From Leucobacter tardus (lineage in GTDB: Bacteria > Actinomycetota > Actinomycetes > Actinomycetales > Microbacteriaceae), in contig NZ_JAGFBF010000005.1 in NCBI RefSeq assembly GCF_017583045.1, positions 806,001 to 870,000 on the forward strand: a stretch of 64,000 bases of DNA. The letters are read 5' to 3'. The number at the start of each line of letters is the position of its first letter. The first letter of the stretch is position 1. The position numbers were made by a program, and so were the translations under genes. Below the pieces are notes generated by a model, which made no database searches, was not told the origin of the DNA, and saw only the letters and a program-made list of their open reading frames with translations. Positions 1 through 62,274 of the stretch are shown here, one piece after another.

Positions 1-764
1 CGGCGATCCAACTCGATCTTGGTCTCGCCAGGGCCTCTCGAGCCCATGCCTGCACCGGCCGAACCCACCTGGCCACCGGCCTGACGCGACATCGACTCGC
101 CCCAACCGCGGAGTCGGGGCAGCAGGTACTCGAGCTGCGCCAGCTCGACCTGGGCTTTGCCCTCTCGGCTCTTGGCGTGCTGACTGAAGATATCCAGGAT
201 CACCGCGGTACGATCGATCACCTTCACCTTCACCACGTCCTCGAGGGCACGACGCTGACTCGGCGCGAGTTCGGTGTCGGCGATGACCGTGTCCGCACCC
301 TCCGCGGCGACGAGTTCGGCGAGCTCCTGCGCCTTGCCCTTGCCGAGATAGGTCGCCGGATCGGGATTCGCCCGTCGCTGGAGCAGCCCGTCGATCACCC
401 GGGCACCGGCCGTCTCGGCCAGCGCGGCGAGTTCGCGCAACGAGTTCTCGGCGTCTTCGACGCTGCCCTGTGAGTACACGCCGATCAGCACGACGTTCTC
501 GAGTCGCAGCTCACGATTCTCCACCTCGGAGACGTCTTCGAGCTCCGTCGAGAGGCTGGGCACGCGGCGCATCGACGCCCGCTGCTCGCGCTCCATGCGG
601 ATCGCATCGAGATCCTCGGCCAAGTGATCGTGCTCGGCGTCGCCGAGCGCCTGGGCGCCCTCGCTCCAGTCGCGGATCACGGTGGCGTCCCGTCGCTGGG
701 AGGCTCGCGCGAGGATCCGCTCGATCGGGTCGTCGGCAGGGTGCTGATCTTCTGGTGTGCTCAT
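1..764 (-). CDS. hflX: GTPase HflX, N-terminal part (runs off left edge)
   Basis: Ribosome-associated GTPase that rescues or splits stalled ribosomes. The frame is open from the edge to an ATG at 762-764 and gives about 254 residues. After a variable N-terminus come the HflX N-domain (VLIGVY, then the region with RANPDPATYLGKGK), the helical segment VIDRTAVILDIFSQHAKSREGKAQVELAQLEYLLPR (quoted in parts: DRTAVILDIF, LAQLEYLLPR) and the glycine-rich loop GSAGAGMGSRGPGETKIE that precedes the GTPase domain. The G-domain motifs lie outside the window. It is the last gene of the dapF-miaA-miaB-recX-recA neighbourhood usual in actinobacteria. A TAGACT hexamer 8 nt upstream suggests a leaderless start. 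Identification is firm; length cannot be judged. Confidence 0.93.
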   Translation of the reverse strand, partial: MSTPEDQHPADDPIERILARASQRRDATVIRDWSEGAQALGDAEHDHLAEDLDAIRMEREQRASMRRVPSLSTELEDVSEVENRELRLENVVLIGVYSQGSVEDAENSLRELAALAETAGARVIDGLLQRRANPDPATYLGKGKAQELAELVAAEGADTVIADTELAPSQRRALEDVVKVKVIDRTAVILDIFSQHAKSREGKAQVELAQLEYLLPRLRGWGESMSRQAGGQVGSAGAGMGSRGPGETKIELDR

Positions 765-48370: not shown

Positions 48371-48451
48371 TCACCATCGTGGACTTGCGCACATCGGTAC
48401 TGCGTTGATGAACTGTTCTCGCACCGCGCACACCAGCGCGGGCACTGCACT

Positions 48452-48473
48452 CGTTCGCACCACCCCGCGAACG
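48452..48473 (+). other. Leader hairpin 1 of the MFS gene
   Basis: CGTTCGC-N8-GCGAACG, perfect 7-bp inverted repeat 42-64 nt before the MFS start. Confidence 0.5.
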
Positions 48474-48478
48474 ATGAG

Positions 48479-48499
48479 GAATGCCCCACCCCGGCATTC
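48479..48499 (+). other. Leader hairpin 2 of the MFS gene
   Basis: GAATGCC-N7-GGCATTC, perfect 7-bp inverted repeat ending 2 nt before the GAAGGAG ribosome binding site. With hairpin 1 it forms a tandem stem-loop leader. Confidence 0.5.
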
Positions 48500-48515
48500 G
48501 CGAAGGAGCCCTGTC

Positions 48516-49847
48516 ATGCGCGTTGACCCGACGATGCTCAGCACCCCGAGCCGGTCGCGTCCCCCGGCATCCCGAGACATGCGACGACACATGCGCATCG
48601 TCCTCACGGTCATCGCGCTGTTCACCTTGCTCGTCAGCGCCAACCTCAGCACCCCGCTGTATCCGCTGCTGCAGGACGCGCTCGGGATCGAAGCCGTCGG
48701 CACCACGGTCGCGTTCTCGAGCTACGTGCTCGCGTTGATCGTCGGACTCCTGCTCTTCAGGCGCGTCGCGGACACGGCCAACCGCCGCACCGTGCTCGTT
48801 GCCTCCCTCATCGCCGCAGCGCTGTCGACGGCAGCGCTCGCTTGCGCTCCCACTCTCGGCTGGTTCTCCGTCGCGCGCGCCGTGCAGGGTGTTGCCGTGG
48901 CGTGCGCAACGGGGATCGGCTCGGGAGCGCTGCGAGCGCTGCTGCCGGGGCGACCGTCGGTCGTCGGCCGGTTGACCTTGCTCGCGACATCCGGCGGCGT
49001 GGCAGCCGGTCCCGTCGTCGGCGGCGTTCTCTCCACCGGCAGCAATCCCCTCGTGCTGCCGTACCTCTCCGTCGCGACCGTCCTGATCGCCCTGGTCCCG
49101 ATCGTGCTGGTCGTCGCGCCGCACGCAGCGTGCGCGCCCGCGCCGCTCAACGGCGCGATCGCGCTTCCCGACGCACCACCCTCGGCGCGCACGTCCGATC
49201 GCCCGTTCCCGCCCGGTGCGGCGACGCAGCATCGCACGTTCCGCGTGGCCGCAGCAACGGGTTTCCTGAGCTTCGCGGTCTTCGGGTTCTGCCTCTCGCT
49301 CGCGCCGACCCACTTCGCCGCGATCGCCCAGACCGAGTCGCGCCCGTTGATCGGAGCGCTCGCCGCCATCGTCCTCGGATCCTCCGCCCTGGTCCAGATC
49401 ATTCCGCTCAGTGGACGGTGGCGCCTCCCCTCGGGTCTCGCCGCCCTCGCGGTCGCGCTCATCGGACTCGCGGCGGCCGGTTCCGTGGGGAGCGTGTGGT
49501 TCCTCGTCGTCACCTGTGCGGTCGCGGGCGTCGGTCAGGGCATCGCGTTCCAGGCCGCATTCACTGCGGCCACCGCCGCGGTCGACCCCCGTCACCACGC
49601 GTCGACGGTCAGCGCCATCTACACCGTCACCTATCTCGGCAGCGCGCTCCCCGTGATCGCGCTCGGGATACTGACCGACCGCATCGGCCTGTTCCACTCC
49701 GTGACGGTGTTCGCGATCGTGATCGCGGCGGGGTGCGCGGCACTCGCGATCACCGCGGCTGCGCGTCCGTCCGCCCCGGTACCTGTTTCCGGATCGGTGC
49801 TCACTCGGCGAGCGCCGCGAGAGCACGGCGATCGGCCTCGGCAGTGA
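48516..49847 (+). CDS. MFS transporter
   Basis: 443 residues, 12 predicted membrane segments; likely proton-driven exporter of the drug/sugar efflux type. The cytosolic TM2-TM3 loop [13 protein letters not shown] is the MFS motif A position, and [23 protein letters not shown] is the TM4/TM5 motif region. ATG at 48516 after GAAGGAG (7-nt spacer). The first ~25 residues are basic. Substrate unknown; the divergent AsnC regulator hints at an amino acid or derivative. Its 3' end overlaps the convergent gntR by 47 nt. Confidence 0.85.
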
Positions 49848-50553
49848 GCAACGGCGCGAATCGGTTCGCCACCGCCTGCCGAGCGATCCGACTCGCCTCA
49901 CCGGCGTCGCGCTGCTCGATGGCGGCGAAGAGGCCGCGATCGATACGGGCGGATTCGAGTTTGACCCGATTGTCGTGGTGCTCCCCCGCCGCATCGCGCT
50001 GCATCAAGCGCAAGAGGACGCCGGCGACGGCTTCTCCGCTCAATTGCAACATCTGATTGCCGCTTGCAGCCCAGATGGCCTCGTGGAACTCGAGGTCGGC
50101 ATCGGCGAACGAATCGGCGTTCGACACCGCGTCCCGCTCCATACGATCGATCGCGACGCTCATGCGGCTCAGCTGCCCGTCGTCGTGCTTGATCGCCGCG
50201 AGGCGGCATGCGGAGCCCTCGAGGATCACGCGGTACTCGACGAGATCGGCGACCTCGACGGCGTCGGTGCCGACGAGTGCGCGGAGGGATCGGGACAGCG
50301 TCTTCGCCGATGGTGCCAGCACGACCGGGCCGCCGCGGGTTCCGGGCCGGGATTCGAGGAGGCCCATGCTCTGCAGAATCCTGAGTGCTTCGCGAATGGT
50401 CGGACGGCTCACTCCGAACTGCACCATGAGCTCGCGTTCACTGGGCAGCTGCGCCCCCACGGGGATCTCTCCGGAGAGGATCGCGCGTTCGATCTGGTCG
50501 ACGATCCGCTCGTAGGTGTGGACCGGTACGGCCGGCTCGAAAGTGTGGGACAT
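49801..50553 (-). CDS. FadR-subfamily GntR regulator
   Basis: 250 residues. N-terminal winged HTH ([42 protein letters not shown], in outline: [20 protein letters not shown], about residues 37-56) and an FCD ligand domain with the metal-type residues D and H in [19 protein letters not shown] at 50551-50553. Divergent from the importer operon. Its promoter (-35 TGGTCA, 17 nt, -10 TAGGAT) overlaps the candidate operator TGGTCAGGCCA, implying autoregulation. Proposed local regulator of the catabolic island 50719-60936. Confidence 0.88.
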
Positions 50554-50623
50554 CGGCGTTCGAGGCCTCTCTGCAGGGGACGCGTTCTCGGGGCGCGCGC
50601 ATGCGGCCGTCGAAGATGACCCG

Positions 50624-50652
50624 ATCCTACCTGTCAGGGAGTGGCCTGACCA
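50624..50652 (-). promoter_or_regulatory. gntR promoter
   Basis: -35 TGGTCA (50647-50652), 17-nt spacer, -10 TAGGAT (50624-50629) on the minus strand, about 70 nt before the start. Confidence 0.6.
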
Positions 50653-50678
50653 TGTACCCTCGTGAGATGATCGACGTG
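50639..50678. promoter_or_regulatory. Candidate GntR operator and second shared element, importer promoter
   Basis: GAGTGGCCTGACCAT (50639-50653) and ATGATCGACGTG (50667-50678). The core TGG-N5-CCA reads TGGTCAGGCCA on the minus strand, close to the TGGTNNNACCA consensus of FadR-type operators. A partly overlapping GTCAGG-N6-CCTGAC inverted repeat spans 50633-50650. Both elements recur at 59753-59791. Confidence 0.65.
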
Positions 50679-50718
50679 TTCGATCTCGGTACACCTCCGG
50701 ACCACACCCAGGGAAGCA

Positions 50719-52239
50719 ATGATGCAACGTCCTTCGACCATCTTCACCACCGCACTTGCCGCTGCCGGCGCGCTCGCACTCGCGGGATGCACGGCCGGCG
50801 CCGGCAGCACGACCGAGGGCGGGGGCGGTGACACCCCCGATTCCGCCACGATCGCGCTGACCGGAACCCCGACGAACCTTGACTTCACGACCACCGCGGG
50901 CTCCGCGATTCCGCAGGCCATGATGTCGAACGTCTACGAAGGTCTGGTCGAGGTCGATCAGGAGGGCGAGATCGTGCCGCTCCTGGCGAGCGACTGGTCC
51001 GTCAGCGACGACCGCAAGACCTACACGTTCACGCTCGAGGAGGGCGTCACCTTCTCGAACGGTGCGGATTTCACCGCCGAGGACGTGAAGTTCAGCTTCG
51101 ACCGCGTCGAATCCGACTGGGTCTCCAGCCTGAAGTCGAAGATGGACGTCGTCGACGAGGTCGAGGTGCTCGGCGACCACGAAGTCGCGGTGCGCTTGGA
51201 GCGACCGTCCAATGCGTGGCTCTTCGACCTCGCGACCCCTGTCGGAGCGATCTTCACCCCCGACGGCGTCGACGACCTCGCGAATGCGCCCGTCGGCACC
51301 GGCCCGTACACCGTGGACACCTGGACCCCCAACGAGCGCATCGTGCTCGGCACGCGCGACGATTACTGGGGCGAGCGCCCCGGGGTCGACGAGGTCACCC
51401 TGCGCTACTTCGCGGACGCGACGGCGACGACCAATGCCCTGCAGACCGGCGACGTCGACGCGATCGCGAACCTGCAGGCGCCCGAACTGCTGTCGAGCTT
51501 CGAGTCGGACGACGCGTTCACCATTCTGAGCGGCACTTCGAGCGGCGAGGTCTCCCTCTCGCTCAACAACCAGGCGGAGCCCTTCGACGACGTCCGAGTG
51601 CGCCAGGCGGTCCTCTACGCCCTCGACGAGCAGGCGATCCTCGACACCGCATGGAACGGGTACGGCACGTTGCAGGCGACCTATGCGACGCCGACCGATC
51701 CCTACTACGAGGACCTGACGGACGTGTACGCCCACGACCCCGACCGGGCGCGCGAACTGCTGCAGGAGGCGGGTCACGAGAGCCTCGACATCACCTTCAC
51801 GGTGCCGACGCGACCCTACGCGCAGGCCGTCTCCGAGATCGTCGTCTCGCAGCTCGCCGACGTGGGCATCAACGCGACGATCGAATCGTCCGAGTTCCCG
51901 GCCGTCTGGCTCGACGAGGTCTTCACGAACCACGACTACCAGATGACGACCGTGCTCGCCGTCGAGGCCCGCGACATGCTCACCGTGTTCAACGACCCCG
52001 ACTACTACATCGGGTACGACAACTCGGAGATCGCGCCGATCGCGGCAGCCGCCGACGAGGCCGACGAAGCCGGGTACATCTCGGGAATGCAGGAGGTCTC
52101 CGAGAAGATCGTGGAAGACGCCGCATCCGGGGTGCTCTTCCTCTTCCCGAACATCGTCGTCGCCAAGGCGGACCTGCAGGGGCTGCCCGAGAACGCCATC
52201 GTCGAGGCGCTGAACCTCGGCGACCTGAGCTGGCAGTAA
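50719..52239 (+). CDS. ABC transporter substrate-binding lipoprotein, family 5 (peptide/nickel type)
   Basis: 506 residues. Signal peptide with lipobox LALAGC (C24 lipidated). SBP_bac_5 features: VYEGLVEVDQEGEIVPLLASDWSVSDDRKTYTFTLEEGVTFSNGADFTAEDVKFSFDRV (in outline: LEEGVTFSNGADFTAEDVKF), PVGTGPYTVDTWTPNERIVL and VRQAVLYALDEQAIL. Delivers a peptide- or amide-like solute to the downstream permeases. First gene of importer-amidase operon. Ligand unknown. Confidence 0.92.
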   Translation: MMQRPSTIFTTALAAAGALALAGCTAGAGSTTEGGGGDTPDSATIALTGTPTNLDFTTTAGSAIPQAMMSNVYEGLVEVDQEGEIVPLLASDWSVSDDRKTYTFTLEEGVTFSNGADFTAEDVKFSFDRVESDWVSSLKSKMDVVDEVEVLGDHEVAVRLERPSNAWLFDLATPVGAIFTPDGVDDLANAPVGTGPYTVDTWTPNERIVLGTRDDYWGERPGVDEVTLRYFADATATTNALQTGDVDAIANLQAPELLSSFESDDAFTILSGTSSGEVSLSLNNQAEPFDDVRVRQAVLYALDEQAILDTAWNGYGTLQATYATPTDPYYEDLTDVYAHDPDRARELLQEAGHESLDITFTVPTRPYAQAVSEIVVSQLADVGINATIESSEFPAVWLDEVFTNHDYQMTTVLAVEARDMLTVFNDPDYYIGYDNSEIAPIAAAADEADEAGYISGMQEVSEKIVEDAASGVLFLFPNIVVAKADLQGLPENAIVEALNLGDLSWQ

Positions 52240-52263
52240 CCGAACGGCACCGGAGCGCATCCC

Positions 52264-53213
52264 ATGGCGGTCAGACTGCTCATCAACCTCGCACGATTCG
52301 TGGCGACGTACTTCGTCGCCACGATCGTGGTGTTCCTGTTCATGCGTCTGATCCCCGGGGATCCCGCTCAGGTCGCCCTCGGCGTCAACGCCACCCCGGA
52401 ACTCCTCGTGCAGACGCGTGCCGAATTCGGCACTGATCGTCCGCTCATCCAGCAGTACTTCGACTGGTCGGGCGGCCTGCTCCGCGGAGACTTCGGCATC
52501 TCGTACGTCACCCGCACGGACATCAGCCCGATGGTGCTCGACAAGGTCCAGGTGAGCCTGATCCTCGTGCTCACCGCGATGGCGATCGCGCTGCTCGTCG
52601 CGATCCCGCTGGGCACCTGGGCCGCCGTCAAGCACCGCAACCTCTCGGGCGTCGTCATCGGCGTCGGGTCTCAGATCGGCGTCGCGATCCCCGGGTTCCT
52701 CGCCGGCATCCTCCTCGTCATCGTCTTCGCCGTCGGTCTCGGCTGGTTGCCCGCGAACGGGTGGACGGCACCGGTGGAGGATTTCGGCGACTTCCTGCGC
52801 CGCCTGATCCTGCCCGTCCTCGCACTCGCCTCGGTGCAGGGCGCGATCCTGACCCGCTACGTACGGTCGGCGGTGCTCGAGGTGATGAGTGAGGACTACC
52901 TCCGCACGGCACGGGCGAAGGGGCTCGGCAAGACCGAGGCGCTCATCAAGCACGGACTGCGCAATGCCGCGATCCCCGTCATCACCGTGACCGGCGTGCA
53001 GATCGCCGCCCTCATCATCGGCGCCGTGGTGATCGAGCGGGTATTCGTGATCCCGGGACTCGGATCCATGCTGCTCGATGCGGTCGGCAACCGCGACCTG
53101 CTCACGGTGCAGTCGGTCGTCATGGTGCTGGTCGCCATCACCCTGATACTGAACCTGGTGGTCGACATCCTCTACACGGTCGTCGACCCGCGCTTGCGAA
53201 AGGGTGCGAACGC

Positions 53214-53217
<4 letters not shown>
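52264..53217 (+). CDS. Dipeptide-type ABC permease, DppB-like
   Basis: 317 residues, six membrane segments, N-terminal TM plus BPD_transp_1 domain; FMRLIPGDPAQVALG and RTARAKGLGKTEALIKHGLRNA (EAA loop, in outline: ARAKGLGKTEALIKHGLRNA) are canonical. Pairs with the next permease; 4-nt overlap. Confidence 0.93.
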
Positions 53218-54125
<908 letters not shown>

Positions 54126-54126
54126 T

Positions 54127-55968
54127 ATGACCTCTGCACAGCACCCAGGCGCCACCGCCGCGCCCGCGGATGCGCTCCTCGCCGTCGACGGGCTGCACGT
54201 CCGCACCGCGGAGCGCACCCTCGTCCACGACTTCTCGCTGCACATGGCCCACGGGGAACGCATCGGGCTCATCGGCGAGTCCGGTTCGGGCAAGTCCATG
54301 ACCACGACGGCCCTGCTCGGTCTCCTGCCGCACGGGGTCGCCGCCGACGGGTCCGTCCGGGTCGACGGGTACGCGGGCAATCTGCTCGACGCGCCTGAGG
54401 CCGACCTCATGCGCCTGCGCGGAAAGGACCTGGCGATGGTCTTCCAGGAGCCGTTGACCGCGCTGAACCCCCTCATGCGCGCGGGCGCGCAGGTCGCCGA
54501 GATCATGCTGCGCCACCGCATGGTCTCCTCGAAGGCCGAAGCGCACCGACGCGCGGTCGAGATGCTCGATGCCGTGCACCTTCCCGATCCGGCGGAGGCG
54601 GCCAGGGCGTACCCGCATCAGCTCTCGGGCGGGCAGCGTCAGCGCGTGATGCTCGCCATGGCGCTCGCGAACGACCCGAGTCTGCTGCTCTGCGATGAGC
54701 CCACGACGGCGCTCGACGTCACGGTGCAACGACAGGTGCTCGACCTGATCCTCGAGCTCGTACGCGCCCGCGGGACCGGTCTGCTCTTCATCACCCACGA
54801 CCTCGCCGTCGTCGCGAACATGTGCACGCGCGTGCTCGTGATGAACGAGGGGACGGTCGTGGAAGCGGGTGAGACCGAGACCGTCTTCACCCGACCGCAG
54901 CACCCGTACACGCGCGGCCTCCTGGCCGCATCGGACCTCGATGCCGTGGATGAGCGCGGCCGTCTGTTCACGGTCGCGACGGCGCGCGCGTACGTGCCGC
55001 CGACGGTCGAGGCCGCGGGCGCATCCGAGGCGGACCCCGAGGCCGCGGCGCAGACCGCCCTCGCGCCCGCGGCCGGCACCGGCACGACGAGCGGGCGCGC
55101 TCCGCGTACCGCGAACGGCGACGATCGTGCACCGGTCATGCGCGTCACCGATCTCGTGCGGACCTACTCCCGCGGAAAGACCAGCCTGTTCGCACCCGCC
55201 GCGCAGGTGCGCGCTCTCACGGGCATCTCCTTCGAGGTTCCCGAGGGCGGGCGACTGGGCGTCGTGGGCGAATCGGGATCGGGCAAATCGACCCTGCTCC
55301 GCATTCTCGCCGGGCTCGACCAACCCACCTCGGGCAGCGCGATCGTCGCGGGCAACGAAGTGGCAGGGGCTCGCGAGTCCCAGCTGCGCGACCTCCGTCA
55401 GAATCTGCAGATCGTGTTCCAGGATCCGATGGGCTCGCTCGACCCGCGCATGACGGTCGCGCAGATCATCTCCGAGCCGCTGCTGGTGCCCGGACGCGAT
55501 GAAACCGCCGCCGATCGGCGGCGCATGGTCGCGGAGATGCTCGACGCCGTCGGCCTCCCCGCATCGGCGGCGAGCCGGTTCCCGCACGAGTTCTCGGGCG
55601 GACAGCGGCAGCGGATCTCGATCGCCCGCGCGCTCATCTGCCGTCCGAAGGTCGTGGTCGCCGACGAGCCGGTCAGCGCCCTCGACGTCTCGGTGCGCGC
55701 GCAGGTGCTGAACCTGCTCGCCGACCTGGTCGACGAATACGGATTGACCCTCGTCTTCGTCTCGCACGATCTCAACGTCGTGCGTCACCTGTGCGACTCC
55801 GTCATCGTCATGCAGTCGGGCGCCATCATCGAGGCCGGCGACACCGAGACCATCTACCGGAACCCGCAGCACCCGTACACCGAGAAGCTCATCGCCTCGT
55901 CGCTCACCCTGCGTCACGAACTGGCCGGCACCCCCGACGCCGGCGCATCGGCACGCACTCCAGAATAG
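54127..55968 (+). CDS. Fused dual ATPase of the peptide-type ABC importer (DppD-DppF)
   Basis: 613 residues, two complete ATP-binding cassettes. First: Walker A GESGSGKS (50-57), LSGGQ (166-170), Walker B LLLCDEP (186-192). Second: GESGSGKS (about 381-388), FSGGQRQRIS, VVVADEP. Each is followed by the oligopeptide-transporter extension with TIYRNPQHPYTEKL or FTRPQHPYTRGL. The Ala/Thr-rich linker is about 285-335. Both domains look active. Confidence 0.94.
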   Translation: MTSAQHPGATAAPADALLAVDGLHVRTAERTLVHDFSLHMAHGERIGLIGESGSGKSMTTTALLGLLPHGVAADGSVRVDGYAGNLLDAPEADLMRLRGKDLAMVFQEPLTALNPLMRAGAQVAEIMLRHRMVSSKAEAHRRAVEMLDAVHLPDPAEAARAYPHQLSGGQRQRVMLAMALANDPSLLLCDEPTTALDVTVQRQVLDLILELVRARGTGLLFITHDLAVVANMCTRVLVMNEGTVVEAGETETVFTRPQHPYTRGLLAASDLDAVDERGRLFTVATARAYVPPTVEAAGASEADPEAAAQTALAPAAGTGTTSGRAPRTANGDDRAPVMRVTDLVRTYSRGKTSLFAPAAQVRALTGISFEVPEGGRLGVVGESGSGKSTLLRILAGLDQPTSGSAIVAGNEVAGARESQLRDLRQNLQIVFQDPMGSLDPRMTVAQIISEPLLVPGRDETAADRRRMVAEMLDAVGLPASAASRFPHEFSGGQRQRISIARALICRPKVVVADEPVSALDVSVRAQVLNLLADLVDEYGLTLVFVSHDLNVVRHLCDSVIVMQSGAIIEAGDTETIYRNPQHPYTEKLIASSLTLRHELAGTPDAGASARTPE

Positions 55969-55979
55969 AGGACCTCACC

Positions 55980-57395
55980 ATGCAGTTCGACGCAGCCTCA
56001 CGCCCCGCGGACCTCGACGCTGCGACGCTGGCGCAGCGATTCGCGGCCGGAACGCTGACCCCGACCGAGGTCGCCGAAGACGTCATCGCGCGCGTCACGG
56101 AGCGCGAACCCGAACTCAACGCCCTGTACCTGTTCGACCCGGAACAGGTGCGCCGCGACGCCGCGGCCTCCACCGAGCGCTGGCGGGCGGGGGCGTCGCG
56201 CGGCCCGTTCGACGGGGTACCCGCGACGGTGAAGGAGAACATCGCCCGCGCCGGTCAGCCGAAACCCGCAGGCACCGCGGTCCCCCACCCGCCGATCGCC
56301 GACCGCAACGCGCCGACGACCGATCGTCTGCTCGAGGCGGGCGTCGTCATCGTCGGGTCCACCACCATGCCCGACTGGGGCATGCTCTCCTCAGGGGTCT
56401 CGAGCCTCCACGGCATCACACGCGGCGCGATCGACCCCGCGCTCACCTCGGGCGGATCGAGCGCTGGGGCCGGCACGGCCGCGGCGGCCGGCTACGGACC
56501 GTTCCACATCGGCACCGACATCGGCGGGTCGATTCGCCTCCCGGGATCGTGGCAGGGACTCACGGCGCTGAAGCCGAGCGAGGGGCTTATCCCCCTCGAT
56601 GTGCCGTACGCCGGTCGCGCGGCCGGACCGCTGACCCGGACCGCCGCCGACACGATCCGCCTCATGTCGATCGTGGCGCGCCCCGACCCGCGCGATTACC
56701 TCACGCGGCCGTACGCACCGATGGACTGGTCGACGGACCCCCTCCCGCCGACGGGCATGCGCGTCGGCGTGCAGCTCGATGCCGGTTCCGGCCTGCCCGT
56801 GGAGCCGGAAACCCTGGCGGTCATCGAGCGCGCGATCCAGCGGTTCGCCGCAGCCGGCGCGAGTGTCGAACCCCTCGACCCGTTCGTCCCGCCCGAGGTG
56901 CTCGACGGACTGGTCGACTTCTGGCGTACCCGTTCGTTCGTCGATTACGCTGCGCTCGGCGAGGCGGAGCGCGCAGCAGTGCTGCCGTTCATCGCGGAGT
57001 GGTGCGCCGCAGGCGAGCACGTCAGCGCCGCACAGACCGTGCGCAACCGGAATCGCATCGATGAGATGGCGCGCCTCACTCGAGCGGCGACCGATCCGTT
57101 CGACCTCGTCCTCTCCCCCGTCACCCCGGTCGCGGCGTTCCCCGCAGAGGATCCCATGCCGATCACCGACCCGCTGCAGACGATGGGTCACATCTCGTTC
57201 ACGGTGCCGTACAACATGTCGGGCCAGCCGGCGGTCTCCATCGGCGCCGGACGGCAGGCCGACGGACGCACCGTGGGGCTGCAGATCGCATCGCGCATCG
57301 GCACCGACGACCGCCTCATGCGGGTCGCCGCGTGGTTCGAGTCCGTGCGGGGCGACGCCGCGAGGGTCGACTGGACCGCCCTCGGGCGAGCCTGA
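55980..57395 (+). CDS. Amidase signature family enzyme
   Basis: 471 residues, cytosolic. Catalytic Lys-cisSer-Ser: K85 (VKENIA), S161 (SGGSSAGAG) and nucleophile S184 (GTDIGGSIRLP). Complete core and length. Hydrolyses a C-N bond of an amide, possibly the imported solute. ATG at 55980 after AGAGGA, 11 nt behind the ATPase stop, so same transcript. Not GatA: no gatB/gatC nearby and low GatA-specific sequence. Substrate unknown. Confidence 0.88.
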   Translation: MQFDAASRPADLDAATLAQRFAAGTLTPTEVAEDVIARVTEREPELNALYLFDPEQVRRDAAASTERWRAGASRGPFDGVPATVKENIARAGQPKPAGTAVPHPPIADRNAPTTDRLLEAGVVIVGSTTMPDWGMLSSGVSSLHGITRGAIDPALTSGGSSAGAGTAAAAGYGPFHIGTDIGGSIRLPGSWQGLTALKPSEGLIPLDVPYAGRAAGPLTRTAADTIRLMSIVARPDPRDYLTRPYAPMDWSTDPLPPTGMRVGVQLDAGSGLPVEPETLAVIERAIQRFAAAGASVEPLDPFVPPEVLDGLVDFWRTRSFVDYAALGEAERAAVLPFIAEWCAAGEHVSAAQTVRNRNRIDEMARLTRAATDPFDLVLSPVTPVAAFPAEDPMPITDPLQTMGHISFTVPYNMSGQPAVSIGAGRQADGRTVGLQIASRIGTDDRLMRVAAWFESVRGDAARVDWTALGRA

Positions 57396-57407
57396 GGCGT
57401 CCGCTCG

Positions 57408-58208
57408 CTACGACGCGGGCGGGGTGTACCGGCCGTCGATGGCGGTCCAACCGCCGTCCACCATGAGCGTCGACCCCGTCACGAACGAGGACGCCTCCGA
57501 GGTGAGGAAGACGACGGCGCCCGCCAACTCCTGGGGCTGCGCCCAGCGCCCGAGCGCCGCCTTCTGCGCGTAGGCGTCGTACCACTCGGCGTCGGCCGAG
57601 ATCTGCGCCGTGAGCGGCGTCTCGACGACACCGGGTGCGATCACGTTGACACGGACGCCCCGCGACCCGAACTCGGCCGCCGCGGTCTTCGCGAGCTGCA
57701 CCAGGCCGGCCTTGGTCGCGGCGTAGACCCCCTGGCCCGGCTCGACGACCTGCGCGCGGATCGAGGCGAAGCCGACGATGGAACCGCCGCCGTTCTCGGC
57801 GAAACGCGCACCGAAGCGACGGATGAGCTGGAACGACGCGCGCAGGTTCAGGTTCACCACGCGATCGAACTCGTCGAGCGAGTAGTCCTCCATGCGCTTG
57901 CGCACGTTGGTGGCCGCGGTGAAGACGAGCGCGTGCGCGTGTCCGAAGCGCTCGACCGCGGCATCGACCGCCGCATCATCGAGCACATCGAGTTGGGTCG
58001 CCTCAGCCGAACCGCCGCCCGCCGAGATCAGCGAGACGGTCTCATCGGCGCCGGCGACCGAGAAGTCGGCGACGACGACGTGCGCGCCCTGCGCGGCGAG
58101 CGCCTGCGCGGCTTCCCTGCCGATCCCGCTCCCGGCTCCGATGACGACGACGGTGCGGCCGTCGAGTCGGAAGAGGCCGGCGTAATCCGGTGCGGTGGTG
58201 TTGCTCAT
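57408..58208 (-). CDS. Short-chain dehydrogenase/reductase
   Basis: 266 residues, classical SDR. Cofactor motif GAGSGIG (24-30), D48 after beta2 suggests NAD preference; catalytic S149, Y162 and K166 (FASIRA; YAATK); C-terminal VTGSTLMVDGGWTAIDG. Converges on the amidase gene and follows the aldehyde dehydrogenase by 24 nt. Possible step: oxidation of a hydroxy group released by the amidase. Confidence 0.9.
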   Translation of the reverse strand: MSNTTAPDYAGLFRLDGRTVVVIGAGSGIGREAAQALAAQGAHVVVADFSVAGADETVSLISAGGGSAEATQLDVLDDAAVDAAVERFGHAHALVFTAATNVRKRMEDYSLDEFDRVVNLNLRASFQLIRRFGARFAENGGGSIVGFASIRAQVVEPGQGVYAATKAGLVQLAKTAAAEFGSRGVRVNVIAPGVVETPLTAQISADAEWYDAYAQKAALGRWAQPQELAGAVVFLTSEASSFVTGSTLMVDGGWTAIDGRYTPPAS

Positions 58209-58232
58209 CTGGGTTCTCCTGATCGGGGGGGG

Positions 58233-59714
58233 TCAGCTGCGTGCGCGGGGACGGATCATCGCCATGCGAGTCACGGTGCACTCCTCGATGGCGAACCGGG
58301 GGCCCTCGCGGCCGACACCGGAGTCCTTCACCCCGCCGTAGGGCATGATGTCGGAGCGGAAGCCGGGGATCTCGTTGACGACCACGCCGCCGACCTCGAG
58401 CCGCTCGATCGCCGCGAACGCCTGCTCGAGCGACGCGGTGAAGATCGCGGCCTGAAGGCCGTATCGGGACGCGTTCACGACGTCGATCGCCGCGTCGACG
58501 TCATCGACGGTCGCGAGGCAGACGACCGGTCCGAAGATCTCCTCGGCCCAGAGGTCGACCTCGCTCGGAACATCGCCGAGCACGGTCGGGCGGATGAGCG
58601 CCGGGTCGTCGCCGGTCAGCGGCGGGGTGAGGAGTGTCGCCCCTGCGGTTTCGGCGCGGGTGATCATCTCTCGGATGCGCTCCCCCGACGCGGCGTCGAT
58701 CACGGGGGCCACGTGCGTGTCGGCGTCGCGCGGGTCGCCGACCACGAGCTCGTCGATCCGCGCGATCAGACGGCGGGTGAAACGATCCGCGATCGGCCGC
58801 GCGAGTACCACGCGCTGCACCGAGATGCACGCCTGGCCGTTCGCGTAGAACCCGCCGCGCAGCACCGCGTCGACCGCGGCTTCGATGTCCGCATCCGCCG
58901 CGACGATGAAACCGGTGTTCGATCCGAGCTCGAGCACGACCTTGCGGGGCGCGGCCTGCTGGGCGATCAGATGGCCGACCGCGGCAGAGCCGGTGAACGA
59001 GACCACCCGCGCACGAGCGTCGCGCACGAGCGTCGCGCCGACGTCAGCGCTTCCGTTGACGAGCTGCGCCGCCGCCCGGCTCACCCCGTGCTCGGCCAAC
59101 GCGTCTCGTGTGATGGCGAGCAGCTCGATCGTCGTCAGCGGGGTCTGCGGCGCCGGCTTGATGATGACGGGGCACCCTGCCGCGAGCGCCGGAGCGAGCT
59201 TGTGTACGGCGAGCAGCAGCGGATAATTGAAGCCCGCGATGCCGACGACGACGCCGGCGGGCCGGCGCGTGTAGTACCCGATCATGCCGCGTCCGAGCTC
59301 TTGGAGGTCGAGCGGCACGGTCTCCCCGCCGATGCGCGAGACCTCTTCGACGGTCGCTTCGAGGGCCACGATGGTGCGCGCCACCTCCACGCGACAGTCC
59401 CGACGCGGCTTTCCGGTCTCGAGCACGAGCAGGTCCTCGAGACGCGCGGCGTCGCGGCGGACGCGCGCGGTGATCGCCGCGAGTACCGATTTGCGCTCGG
59501 ACGTCGTCAGGTTCGCCATCTCCGATCGGACTCCGTCTGCGGCGGCGAGGGCGTCCGACGCGTCGCCCACGGTGCCGATCGGCGCCTCGGCGACGATCGA
59601 CCCGTCGAAGGGGAAGGTGACGGACGCGGTGACCTCGACGTGGCGCCAGGACTCGCCGATGGGCAGTGCCCTCGGCTCGGCGATGAGCGGTGGGGTCGAG
59701 ACGGGCGTGGGCAT
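58233..59714 (-). CDS. Aldehyde dehydrogenase
   Basis: 493 residues, NAD(P)+-dependent ALDH superfamily. N163 (AGFNYP), IIKPAPQTPLT, FTGS (240-243), general base E262 (LELGSNTG) and nucleophile C296 (NGQACIS) are all present. ATG at 59712-59714. Heads a two-gene operon with the SDR and is divergent from the dehydrogenase at 59812; the shared region carries the operator pair. Substrate unknown. Confidence 0.92.
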   Translation of the reverse strand: MPTPVSTPPLIAEPRALPIGESWRHVEVTASVTFPFDGSIVAEAPIGTVGDASDALAAADGVRSEMANLTTSERKSVLAAITARVRRDAARLEDLLVLETGKPRRDCRVEVARTIVALEATVEEVSRIGGETVPLDLQELGRGMIGYYTRRPAGVVVGIAGFNYPLLLAVHKLAPALAAGCPVIIKPAPQTPLTTIELLAITRDALAEHGVSRAAAQLVNGSADVGATLVRDARARVVSFTGSAAVGHLIAQQAAPRKVVLELGSNTGFIVAADADIEAAVDAVLRGGFYANGQACISVQRVVLARPIADRFTRRLIARIDELVVGDPRDADTHVAPVIDAASGERIREMITRAETAGATLLTPPLTGDDPALIRPTVLGDVPSEVDLWAEEIFGPVVCLATVDDVDAAIDVVNASRYGLQAAIFTASLEQAFAAIERLEVGGVVVNEIPGFRSDIMPYGGVKDSGVGREGPRFAIEECTVTRMAMIRPRARS

Positions 59715-59752
59715 GGTGTGACAGCTTCCTGTGGGTGCTCGCCCCTCGATCC

Positions 59753-59791
59753 GAGTGGCCTTACCATTCAATATACGGGATGATCGACGTG
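59753..59791. promoter_or_regulatory. Candidate GntR operator and second shared element, dehydrogenase promoters
   Basis: GAGTGGCCTTACCAT (59753-59767) and ATGATCGACGTG (59780-59791), the same pair as at 50639-50678 with one base less between. A -10-like TATACG lies between them on the plus strand. Confidence 0.65.
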
Positions 59792-59811
59792 AGACCAACG
59801 CAGGAGGACCC

Positions 59812-60936
59812 ATGACCCAGAACTACGAGATCGCCGTACTGCCCGGAGACGGGATCGGCCCCGAGGTCGTCGGGTGCGCGCTCGCAGTACTCGATGCCGC
59901 AGAGGCTCGGTTCGGCTTCACGACATCGCGGACGGCGATCTCGGCGGGCGCTTCCCAGTACCTCGCGACCGGAGAGCTCTTCGCCGAGGTGCGCGACGAG
60001 CTGCAGCGCCACGACGCGATCCTGTTCGGCTCCATGGGCGACCCCCGTGTGGCGCCGGGAATCCTCGAGCGCGGATTCATCCTCGAGATGCGGCAGCGAT
60101 TCGCGCAGGCGGCGAACGTGCGGCCGGTGCGCCTCTACCCCGGGGTGAGCACCCCCATCAGCGGCCTGACCCCGGATCGCTGCGACCTCGTCATCGTGCG
60201 CGAGAACACCGAGGGGGCCTACGTCGGCCAGGGGTCGACGGTGCACGCCGGTACCGAGCACGCCGTCGCGATGCAGGAGTCCATCAACACGCGGGCAGGG
60301 ATCGCACGGGTCGTGGAGTTCGCATTCCGCCTGGCCTCGCGTCGTCGCCGCAAGCTCACGCTCTGCCACAAGACCAACATCCTCGTCGCAGCCGGCCGGC
60401 TGTGGCAGCAGGTCGTCGCCGATATCGGCGCCGACTATCCCGAGGTCGAGGTCGACTACGTCCACGTCGACGCGATGTGCTTCCACCTTCCGCTCACGCC
60501 CGAGCGCTTCGACGTCGTCGTCACCGACAACCTGTTCGGCGACATCATCACCGACCTCGGAGCCGTCATTCAGGGCGGTCTCGGCGTCGCCACGAGCGCG
60601 AACCTCAATCTCGACGGCAGCGCGCCCAGCATGTTCGAGGCCATCCACGGTTCGGCACCGGATATCGCCGGTACCGGTGGGGCGAACCCGTCGGGGGCGA
60701 TCCTCTCGCTCGCGCTCATGCTCGGGCACCTCGGAGAGGGTGCCGCAGCCGCCGCGGTCGAGGCCGCCACCGTACAGGTGCTCGGAGAGCTGCCGGCACT
60801 TTCGGGCCCCGGCATGGGACTCACCACCGATGAGGTGGGTGCGCGGATCGCCGCGATCGTGCGCGACGGTGCGGCGGACACGGCGCTGGTGCCCGACTCG
60901 GTGCTCACCACGCTCGCCGAGCTCGCCCGGCCCTGA
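59812..60936 (+). CDS. Isocitrate/isopropylmalate dehydrogenase family protein
   Basis: 374 residues, beta-decarboxylating NAD(P)-dependent dehydrogenase. VLPGDGIGPEVVGCALAVLDAA at the N-terminus, RENTEGAYVGQGS, KTNILVAAGRLW (catalytic Lys region), DYVHVDAMCFHLPLTPERFDVVVTDNLFGDIITDLGAVIQGGLG (signature, in outline: DNLFGDIITDLGAVIQGGLG) and EAIHGSAPDIAGTG. Could be LeuB or a tartrate/malate-type enzyme; its place in the island, away from leuACD, favours a catabolic role. ATG with CAGGAGG upstream. Confidence 0.88.
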   Translation: MTQNYEIAVLPGDGIGPEVVGCALAVLDAAEARFGFTTSRTAISAGASQYLATGELFAEVRDELQRHDAILFGSMGDPRVAPGILERGFILEMRQRFAQAANVRPVRLYPGVSTPISGLTPDRCDLVIVRENTEGAYVGQGSTVHAGTEHAVAMQESINTRAGIARVVEFAFRLASRRRRKLTLCHKTNILVAAGRLWQQVVADIGADYPEVEVDYVHVDAMCFHLPLTPERFDVVVTDNLFGDIITDLGAVIQGGLGVATSANLNLDGSAPSMFEAIHGSAPDIAGTGGANPSGAILSLALMLGHLGEGAAAAAVEAATVQVLGELPALSGPGMGLTTDEVGARIAAIVRDGAADTALVPDSVLTTLAELARP

Positions 60937-60948
60937 CGCCGAACGATT

Positions 60949-60983
60949 CGGGGAGGAGGCGGATCACGTCCGTCCCCTCCCCG
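60949..60983. terminator. Bidirectional terminator
   Basis: 15-bp stem with two mismatches (60949-60963 with 60969-60983) and a 5-nt loop between convergent genes. Confidence 0.75.
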
Positions 60984-60987
60984 ACGT

Positions 60988-62274
60988 TCAGAATCTGCCG
61001 CTGCTGCGCCGCGCTCTCCGCGACAGCGAGTCGATCGTCACCGCGAGCACGAGCACCGCGCCCGTCACGATGTACCTGACCTCGGCGGCCACGCCGATGA
61101 GGTTCAGGCCGCTGGTGATCGACTGCAGCACCAGCATGCCGAGCAGCGCGGCGTACACCGAGCCGCGGCCTCCGAAGAGGCTGACGCCGCCGATGACCGC
61201 GGCGGCGATCGCCATGAGGTTCGTGTCGGTGCCGCCACTCGACTGGGCCACGGATTGCAGGCGACCCGCCGCGAGCACGCCCCCGAACACCGCGAACATC
61301 GAGCACAGCGCGAACACGCTGAGGTAGACGCGGTTGACGGCGATGCCCGCGCGTCGCGCCGCCTCCTCGTTGCCGCCGACCGCGTACACGTGCCGACCCC
61401 AGGTCGTGCGCCGGAGCACCTGGTCCATGATCACGATGATGGCGACCCACAGCAGCGGCATGTACCCGATGCCGCGGTCGATGTTGAGGTAGTACGCCAA
61501 GCCCCCGATCGCCGCGGTGAGCAGCAGCGCGCGGATCCCGATCGACAGCGTCGATGGCGCCGACAGGCCGCTCGAGCGCCGCTTCCGGATCGTGAGCATG
61601 CGCAGACCGAAGTAGAGCAGGCCGGCGAGCACGGCGAGCGCGTACGACGCCCAGTCGGGCAGGAACCAGAAGTTCGCGAAGTCGATGATCCAGGAGTCGC
61701 CCGGCAGGTTGACGGTGCCGTTCGAGCCGAGGACCCAGAGTTGCACGCCCAGGAATGCGAGCAGACCGGCGAGCGAGATCACGAAGCTCGGGACCCCGAA
61801 CCGGGTGTAGAGCAGTCCGTAGATCGAACCGATGAGCAGGCCGCAGACGAGCGCCGCCAGCAGCGCCACGAGCAGCGGCCAGCCCTGATAGACGAACAGT
61901 ACGGCGAGAATGGCGCCGCCGACACCGCTCACCGAGCCGACCGAGAGGTCGATCTCGCCGAGCAGCAGGACGAGGACGATACCCACCGAGATCATGCCGA
62001 TCGTCGCCGAATCGAGGCTCAATTCCACCAGGTTCCTCGACGAGAGGAACCTGGGATTCAAGAAGTAGAAGATGGCCCAGATGACGACCAGCCCGACGAG
62101 GACCGGGACCATGCCGAGGTCTCCCGACCGCATGCGGCGGATGAAACCGCGCAGCAGTTCTGCGGGGGACGAGTCCTCGACGAGGCGTTCATCGCTCCGG
62201 TCGGCGAAGACGGTGGGCGGGAGCGCCGTACTGTTCACCGTGTTCGTGCTCATGGTTTCCGGCTGCTGACTCAT
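60988..62274 (-). CDS. Sugar ABC transporter permease, XylH-like
   Basis: 428 residues, BPD_transp_2 family, about 10-12 membrane segments. VGIVLVLLLGEIDLSVGSVSG, FVISLAGLLAFLGVQLW and GRHVYAVGGNEEAARRAGIAV (EAA-like loop) are typical of xylose/ribose-class permeases; the extra periplasmic loop near SNGTVNLPGDSW is found in XylH. ATG overlaps the ATPase stop (ATGA). Confidence 0.92.
   Translation of the reverse strand: MSQQPETMSTNTVNSTALPPTVFADRSDERLVEDSSPAELLRGFIRRMRSGDLGMVPVLVGLVVIWAIFYFLNPRFLSSRNLVELSLDSATIGMISVGIVLVLLLGEIDLSVGSVSGVGGAILAVLFVYQGWPLLVALLAALVCGLLIGSIYGLLYTRFGVPSFVISLAGLLAFLGVQLWVLGSNGTVNLPGDSWIIDFANFWFLPDWASYALAVLAGLLYFGLRMLTIRKRRSSGLSAPSTLSIGIRALLLTAAIGGLAYYLNIDRGIGYMPLLWVAIIVIMDQVLRRTTWGRHVYAVGGNEEAARRAGIAVNRVYLSVFALCSMFAVFGGVLAAGRLQSVAQSSGGTDTNLMAIAAAVIGGVSLFGGRGSVYAALLGMLVLQSITSGLNLIGVAAEVRYIVTGAVLVLAVTIDSLSRRARRSSGRF

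Follow-up and report, generated by a model that had tools for sequence, protein, structure and literature searches.

The closest described systems are the single-site divergons of the FadR subfamily of GntR regulators, which passages of PMC4494728 describe as controlled by proteins with a GntR helix-turn-helix and an FCD effector domain that bind TKGT/ACMA boxes in which 3 nt separate GT from AC; as described there, a single site placed between the two divergent operons acts on both, and the regulator's gene belongs to one of them. The sialic acid metabolism repressor NanR of E. coli (PDB 6on4, 6wfq) has an operator given in part of PMC8012715 as a (GGTATA)3-repeat, and in bidirectional promoters with a symmetric -10 the commonest spacing of starts is 18 bp, according to sections of PMC12825309. 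We analyzed a 64-kb stretch of the Leucobacter tardus genome (contig NZ_JAGFBF010000005.1, positions 806,001 to 870,000; hereafter the window, whose numbering is used for all coordinates) that holds a catabolic island in the order gntR (minus strand); an SBP_bac_5 solute-binding protein (SBP), two permeases, a fused double ATPase and an amidase (plus); a short-chain dehydrogenase (SDR) and an aldehyde dehydrogenase (minus); and an isopropylmalate/tartrate-type dehydrogenase (plus; here called isopropylmalate dehydrogenase-like, or IPMDH-like). The regulator would very probably switch the importer and the breakdown enzymes together through one DNA site, element 1, that lies inside both island promoters. 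We predict that the island is the local regulon of this GntR/FadR-type protein, with sites in both promoters and autoregulated repression, and put the probability of this reading at roughly 0.82. The locus resembles the FadR-subfamily divergons in its regulator's domains, its boxes and its site beside the regulator's own gene; it differs in that its sites are asymmetric (TGGYCTTACCA) and fixed 2 nt from a conserved -10.

Both copies of element 1 that an earlier note on this DNA had placed upstream of the importer and between the divergent dehydrogenase genes, with a single base different between them, were recovered in window and genome searches. With up to two mismatches allowed, GAGTGGCCTNACCAT had two matches in the window, both exact (50639-50653, with G at the variable base, and 59753-59767, with T there), against a mean of 0.24 matches in shuffled windows, where at least two matches occurred in 1 of 100 shuffles. 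In the whole 2.95-Mb genome TGGCCTNACCA was present in exactly two copies, these two sites only. The looser palindrome TGGYNNNRCCA had 97 sites genome-wide, and the specificity therefore resides in the longer AGTGGYCTKACCA. Predicted operator A, TGGCCTGACCA (50642..50652, plus strand), lies inside the conserved AGTGGYCTKACCA, and predicted operator B reads TGGCCTTACCA (59756..59766, plus strand). All 61 tabulated sites carry TGGY-N3-ACCA, with GT and AC 3 nt apart, which was also the pattern used to gather them. We consider element 1 a real cis-element, a predicted operator of the FadR type as the earlier note had suggested.

The distribution of the site across the genus follows that of the regulator. 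A regulator orthologue (defined at 300 bits or more) was present in 33 of the 54 Leucobacter genomes compared. A search of these genomes with AGTGGYCTKACCA, which superseded an earlier one with TGGYCTNACCAT, returned 70 matches, 68 of them at the importer/gntR or aldehyde-dehydrogenase/IPMDH-like promoters of the island: 32 at the importer promoter, 34 at the dehydrogenase promoter (the 33 regulator genomes plus G010, a 6.6-kb contig with the dehydrogenase part of the island only) and two at extra aldehyde-dehydrogenase copies in G016 and G033. The other two lay elsewhere (G019:C6:181102 and G035:C253:515). The site was thus present in 33/33 genomes with the regulator vs 2/21 without it (Fisher p ~1e-12, uncorrected for relatedness), the two being the G010 island fragment and the stray match in G035. 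Among the 30 listed regulator loci, window included, TGGYCTKACCA stood beside gntR in 29, the exception being G011 (best match with 3 mismatches), and element 1 was found in all 30 IPMDH-like loci listed, window included, 45 to ~100 nt ahead of the gene. The proposal that one regulator would tie together import, amide cleavage and oxidation, its own promoter included, is well supported by this placement.

Island regions from 20 relatives, whose genes were compared by tblastn, mostly kept the window's gene order. Departures were seen in G007, with ~23 kb between amidase and SDR; G031, whose contig ends ahead of the IPMDH-like gene; G033, where the island is divided between contigs; and G012, which was fetched in part and where genes for the IPMDH, amidase and ATPase aligned as separate fragments, which may reflect decay of the island or a fault in the assembly. 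Judged by sequence, the arrangement is ordinary in kind but unusually well conserved, and the strong comparative evidence for membership of the predicted regulon consists of sequence, positions, conservation and co-occurrence with the regulator.

The gntR gene (49801..50553, minus strand) encodes a 250-aa protein of the FadR/FCD type, the proposed local repressor, with an N-terminal GntR winged helix (PF00392, 1.4e-21, 76.3 bits vs a cut-off of 27) and a C-terminal FCD effector domain (PF07729, 6.8e-17, 62.5 bits vs 24.3). An AlphaFold2 model built with 18 sequences (mean pLDDT 78.5, pTM 0.59) was helical from residue 101 except for loops, and its best Foldseek matches were NanR, a Streptococcus GntR, DhdR, PmiR, VanR and CGL2915, with modest query TM-scores (0.36-0.47 over the best 50 matches) and large root-mean-square deviations. 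NanR was the best match by both Foldseek and NCBIfam; however, the NanR model NF003011 scored 120.4 bits vs a cut-off of 260, and the NanR operator is a direct repeat of GGTATA whereas the site here is an imperfect inverted repeat. The best sequence match among solved structures (7.1e-18) was CGL2915 of Corynebacterium glutamicum (PDB 2di3), which we take to be LldR; the regulator scored 84.5 vs a cut-off of 311 against the LldR model. Among the matches listed the regulator passed no named NCBIfam cut-off, and NanR, LldR, GlcC and PdhR were all rejected as names for it, with scores far under the respective cut-offs.

For the anatomy of the promoters we used 31 importer promoters (29 from Leucobacter and two from other genera) and 30 IPMDH promoters. 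Columns -1 to 19 of the importer set were near-invariant, reading AG TGGYCTKACCA TG TATCCT, and the block had a sharp edge, with columns from -2 upstream not near-invariant and conservation ending within 2-3 bases. The column majority of the IPMDH set was GAG TGGYCTKACCA nT TAATATAG. A forward TANNNT stood at offset 14 in 31/31 importer promoters, where in the window it is the predicted -10 of the importer operon (TACCCT, 50655..50660, plus strand), and in 26/30 IPMDH promoters, with three more IPMDH promoters having it at 13; the offset from operator to -10 is thus equal at two unrelated promoters, the operator lying 2 nt upstream of the forward -10.

On the minus strand the two promoters are built differently. 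At the importer, a minus-strand TANNNT at -9..-20 was found in 25/31 promoters vs 14/310 control windows, and in the window this candidate gntR -10 is TAGGAT (50624..50629, minus strand), 17 nt from TGGTCA (50652-50647); the operator would thereby overlap the gntR -35. The overlap with that -35 proposed in the earlier note is plausible by spacing and by the recurrence of the -10; against it, each hexamer has 4/6 identities to consensus and promoter scans reported no promoter there. In the IPMDH region none of the 30 promoters had a minus-strand TANNNT at -9..-20. Instead, in 28/30 of them the minus-strand reading of the -10 is itself a TANNNT, either TATATT or a different one, and falls at offset 19 or 20. 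In the window this predicted shared -10 (59769..59775, both strands; symmetric TAATATAG in most relatives) has CAATAT in place of TANNNT on the plus strand (59769-59774) and TATATT on the minus strand (59775-59770). The symmetric -10 probably serves both directions, and with starts predicted from the -10 positions, the minus-strand TATATT would put the aldehyde-dehydrogenase start within the operator and ~18 bp away from the forward one. This is like the bidirectional promoters in the sections of PMC12825309 compared, in that TAATATAG is a -10 on both strands and the predicted spacing matches theirs. It differs in that the starts here are predicted from sequence, the organism is a high-GC actinobacterium and a dedicated operator overlaps one start.

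Rearranged islands provide natural experiments on this arrangement. All 28 promoters from which the aldehyde dehydrogenase diverges directly have kept the minus-strand -10, vs 0/2 of those from which it does not. The two exceptions, G016 and G033, have an insert between the aldehyde dehydrogenase and the IPMDH-like gene, which in G016 holds a GNAT acetyltransferase gene (Pfam 2.2e-19; L148:2303-3442) and in G033 is similar, the Pfam scan having covered G016 only. In both, an operator and TAATATAG remain in front of the displaced aldehyde dehydrogenase, though no IPMDH-like gene follows there; at the IPMDH promoter the operator and forward -10 are retained, but the sequence is TAATATGG. G011, whose gntR has no importer or amidase next to it, has lost the site on the gntR side and retained the one at the IPMDH promoter. 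As a separate observation, G011 also carries a paralogous pair of a second GntR (40%) and importer (~60%), with a palindrome of its own between them, TAC-TGGTTCGACCA-GTA (L132:2451-4861). Outside the genus, close orthologues at two loci (L139 and L140) keep both site and -10, and in five of five homologous but distinct GntR/SBP divergons (41-44% identity; L141-L145) TGGTCTGACCA or its reverse complement lies between the genes.

The mechanism we propose is that a dimer of the GntR protein would bind two copies of AGTGGYCTKACCA: site 1, in the gap that separates gntR from the importer-amidase operon, and site 2, in the region from which the aldehyde dehydrogenase-SDR pair and the IPMDH-like gene diverge. 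Each site would be centered ~20 bp ahead of the predicted forward start and would also cover the gntR -35 at site 1 and the predicted aldehyde-dehydrogenase transcript start at site 2. Since the operator lies on core promoter DNA, a bound dimer should exclude RNA polymerase in both directions, and all four promoters would be repressed by its occupation of that DNA. Release would come from the binding of a catabolite, derived from an imported substrate of the amide type, to the FCD domain. The symmetric -10 at the second site would probably be used in both directions. We infer binding, repression, transcription starts and effector alike from the DNA.

Several observations weigh against this proposal. 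The operator is asymmetric for a dimer: the boxes agree exactly with TKGT/ACMA in the right half only, the left half being TGGC and not TGGT in 43/61 sites, and position 7 is T in 58/61 sites where a perfect palindrome requires G. A reversed control pattern had 39 matches in the genus vs 70 for AGTGGYCTKACCA; the raw count is therefore unremarkable, and the evidence is the placement of the matches. The 33 genomes are related, so the observations are non-independent and the p-value overstates their independence. G016 and G033 look alike and probably represent a single event, the regulator of G011 persists without its own site, and a 40% relative with amidase neighbors and no SBP match in its locus (L146) had none of these sites in the 3.7 kb of its locus. 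As a pattern TANNNT is weak: the operator itself creates one at offset 7 in 30/31 importer and 16/30 IPMDH promoters, and 15/30 IPMDH promoters carry a further one at 17. Finally, no conserved -35 was found upstream of the forward -10 (columns -9..-4 of the 31 importer and 30 IPMDH promoters), and promoter scans reported no consensus promoter.

Given this last point, the regulator might act not as a repressor but as an activator or a two-way switch, a protein bound in the spacer of promoters without a -35 that helps polymerase to use the -10 and possibly picks the direction at the bidirectional promoter. A near-invariant operator and -10, at fixed spacing in two unrelated promoters, would fit such a role, and MerR-family activators bind between promoter hexamers, as part of PMC12825309 notes. 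No FadR-type spacer activator, however, was found in the literature passages compared, and we think activation unlikely. Polymerase is normally kept out by a site centered ~20 bp ahead of a transcription start, and a good -35 is often missing from the promoters of high-GC actinobacteria. Repression by occupation of the core promoter thus remains our preferred reading.

The earlier note had paired element 1 with a second string, ATGATCGACGTG (element 2), and had offered it as a second shared promoter element, perhaps another operator half or a conserved start region. The observation itself was accurate: ATGATCGACGTG follows in both promoters (50667-50678 and 59780-59791), 14 and 13 nt after TGG-N5-CCA, and the actual common string is 13 nt, GATGATCGACGTG (copy A at 50666..50678 and copy B at 59779..59791, both plus strand). 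The whole genome has four exact copies of ATGATCGACGTG, and the other two are intragenic (C4:305394, in a gene for an FAA hydrolase, and C5:5702, in one for an MnhE-type antiporter subunit), so that the exact pair of elements exists solely at the two island promoters. Across relatives element 2 is not conserved. In the 45 nt after the site it was absent from 28/28 other importer promoters and 29/29 other IPMDH-like promoters, the best match being mismatched at 4 of 13 positions. Of the two elements, then, only element 1 recurs upstream of the orthologous genes; absence there in related strains was what the earlier note had named as a ground for refuting its proposal, and it applies to element 2.

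A role for both elements as a composite control region, with element 2 a second operator or a transcription-start element, draws on the rarity of the shared string: in random 45-nt pairs from the window a shared run of at least 13 nt at an offset of -2..2 occurred in 5 of 199,873, a probability left uncorrected for a pair noticed post hoc. The longest string shared within a genome was 3-7 nt in the 25 other genomes for which both promoters were compared, as against 13 in the window genome, and over 844 cross-genome promoter pairs it was at most 9 nt. In each of the two window promoters element 2 also begins no more than ~2 nt from where transcription is predicted to start, its ATG falling on that start, just downstream of a GTTC that is the relatives' column majority at offsets 21-24 of both promoters (with IPMDH column 22 T in only 18/30). 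Nevertheless, its absence from all 57 other orthologous promoters, the lack of any TKGT/ACMA half-site within it and the intragenic position of the other exact copies led us to reject it as a conserved operator or start region, and we regard the composite region as improbable. Two further explanations were tried and rejected: plain chance, on the random-pair count, though the pair was picked post hoc; and a conserved leaderless start codon, as relatives are without the sequence there and the two frames give unrelated peptides. Element 2 is probably peculiar to this species, whether by coincidence, conversion or innovation, and distinct from the conserved regulatory site, and the proposed mechanism would have no need of it.

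With one mismatch allowed, the 13-mer GATGATCGACGTG had 34 genome matches including the four exact ones. Eight of the 30 one-mismatch copies were inspected (L158-L165): three lay under coding-like open reading frames (ORFs) by a rough base-composition rule, a weak one that flags copy B itself since the flanking genes have longer open frames; two lay in Pfam-matched ORFs (L158 and L161); and L159, L162 and L164 were placed in neither class. A reversed-pattern control (34 vs 2) was not used because the reversed string contains stop triplets. We also observed that a frame of 11 codons (MIDVRPTQEDP, 59780-59815; not conserved) begins with ATGATCGACGTG of copy B and has a TGA that overlaps the dehydrogenase ATG, that copy A opens a frame unrelated to it, and that an inverted repeat in the importer leader, GATCGA-CGTGT-TCGATC (50669-50685), overlaps element 2 and is absent at copy B.

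A joint reading, in which a FadR-type spacer-bound switch would act on -35-less promoters, choosing if and in which direction transcription runs at the symmetric -10 of the dehydrogenase pair, while the start regions of both target promoters in this one species were rewritten to the same 13 nt by conversion between them or co-selection, seems to us quite improbable. That element 1 is the core promoter of another sigma factor or regulator, with GntR linked by proximity only, is highly improbable: the -10 does belong to the conserved block, but matches are almost confined to island promoters of genomes holding this GntR, the motif has FadR-type boxes and a related site occupies the same place in all five of the other-genus divergons described above.

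The genes of the predicted regulon in the window, besides gntR, are as follows. On the plus strand, the solute-binding protein (50719..52239; PF00496, 6.1e-86) is followed by ABC permease 1 (52264..53217; BPD_transp_1, 4.3e-34; 82-89% identity in 16 relative islands), ABC permease 2 (53214..54125; BPD_transp_1, 4.8e-30), the fused double ABC ATPase (54127..55968; ABC_tran in two stretches, 2.9e-61, and oligo_HPY) and the amidase (55980..57395; PF01425, 4.5e-70; NF005450, 582.8 bits with a cut-off of 458). The SDR (57408..58208; PF13561, 4.6e-60) and the aldehyde dehydrogenase (58233..59714; PF00171, 1.4e-127) lie on the minus strand, and the IPMDH-like gene, a LeuB paralogue, on the plus strand (59812..60936; PF00180, 5.3e-82). 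The latter scored above the cut-off of the 3-isopropylmalate dehydrogenase model NF002898 (441.9 vs 393 bits); as the C4 LeuB copy scores better (536.2 bits), the island gene is probably a specialised paralogue. A C4-type relative (~50% identity) was present in 52/54 genomes and the island-type IPMDH in 33, complete in 31 of them and fragmented in 2. Adjoining gntR is an MFS transporter ORF (48405-49847; Pfam 2.7e-24) whose place is kept in relative islands at 48-69% identity. A known RNA element was rejected, no Rfam match reaching the gathering threshold within 50000-61000.

We found no prior account of this regulon in the literature on Leucobacter GntR proteins or in the top-ranked part of a broad regulon search, which is not proof of absence. 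The analysis gives a concrete predicted regulon for a catabolic island kept in ~33/54 Leucobacter genomes, and a 13-bp operator that would be usable for annotating that island. It also illustrates that elements noticed side by side by eye need not share one status, since a real one may stand next to one that is a local peculiarity. For bacterial promoters more widely, the control of bidirectional promoters was called unknown before the work reported in PMC12825309, in the portion of it compared, and the dehydrogenase promoter of this island would offer a naturally occurring example in which a dedicated operator sits on a probably bidirectional -10.

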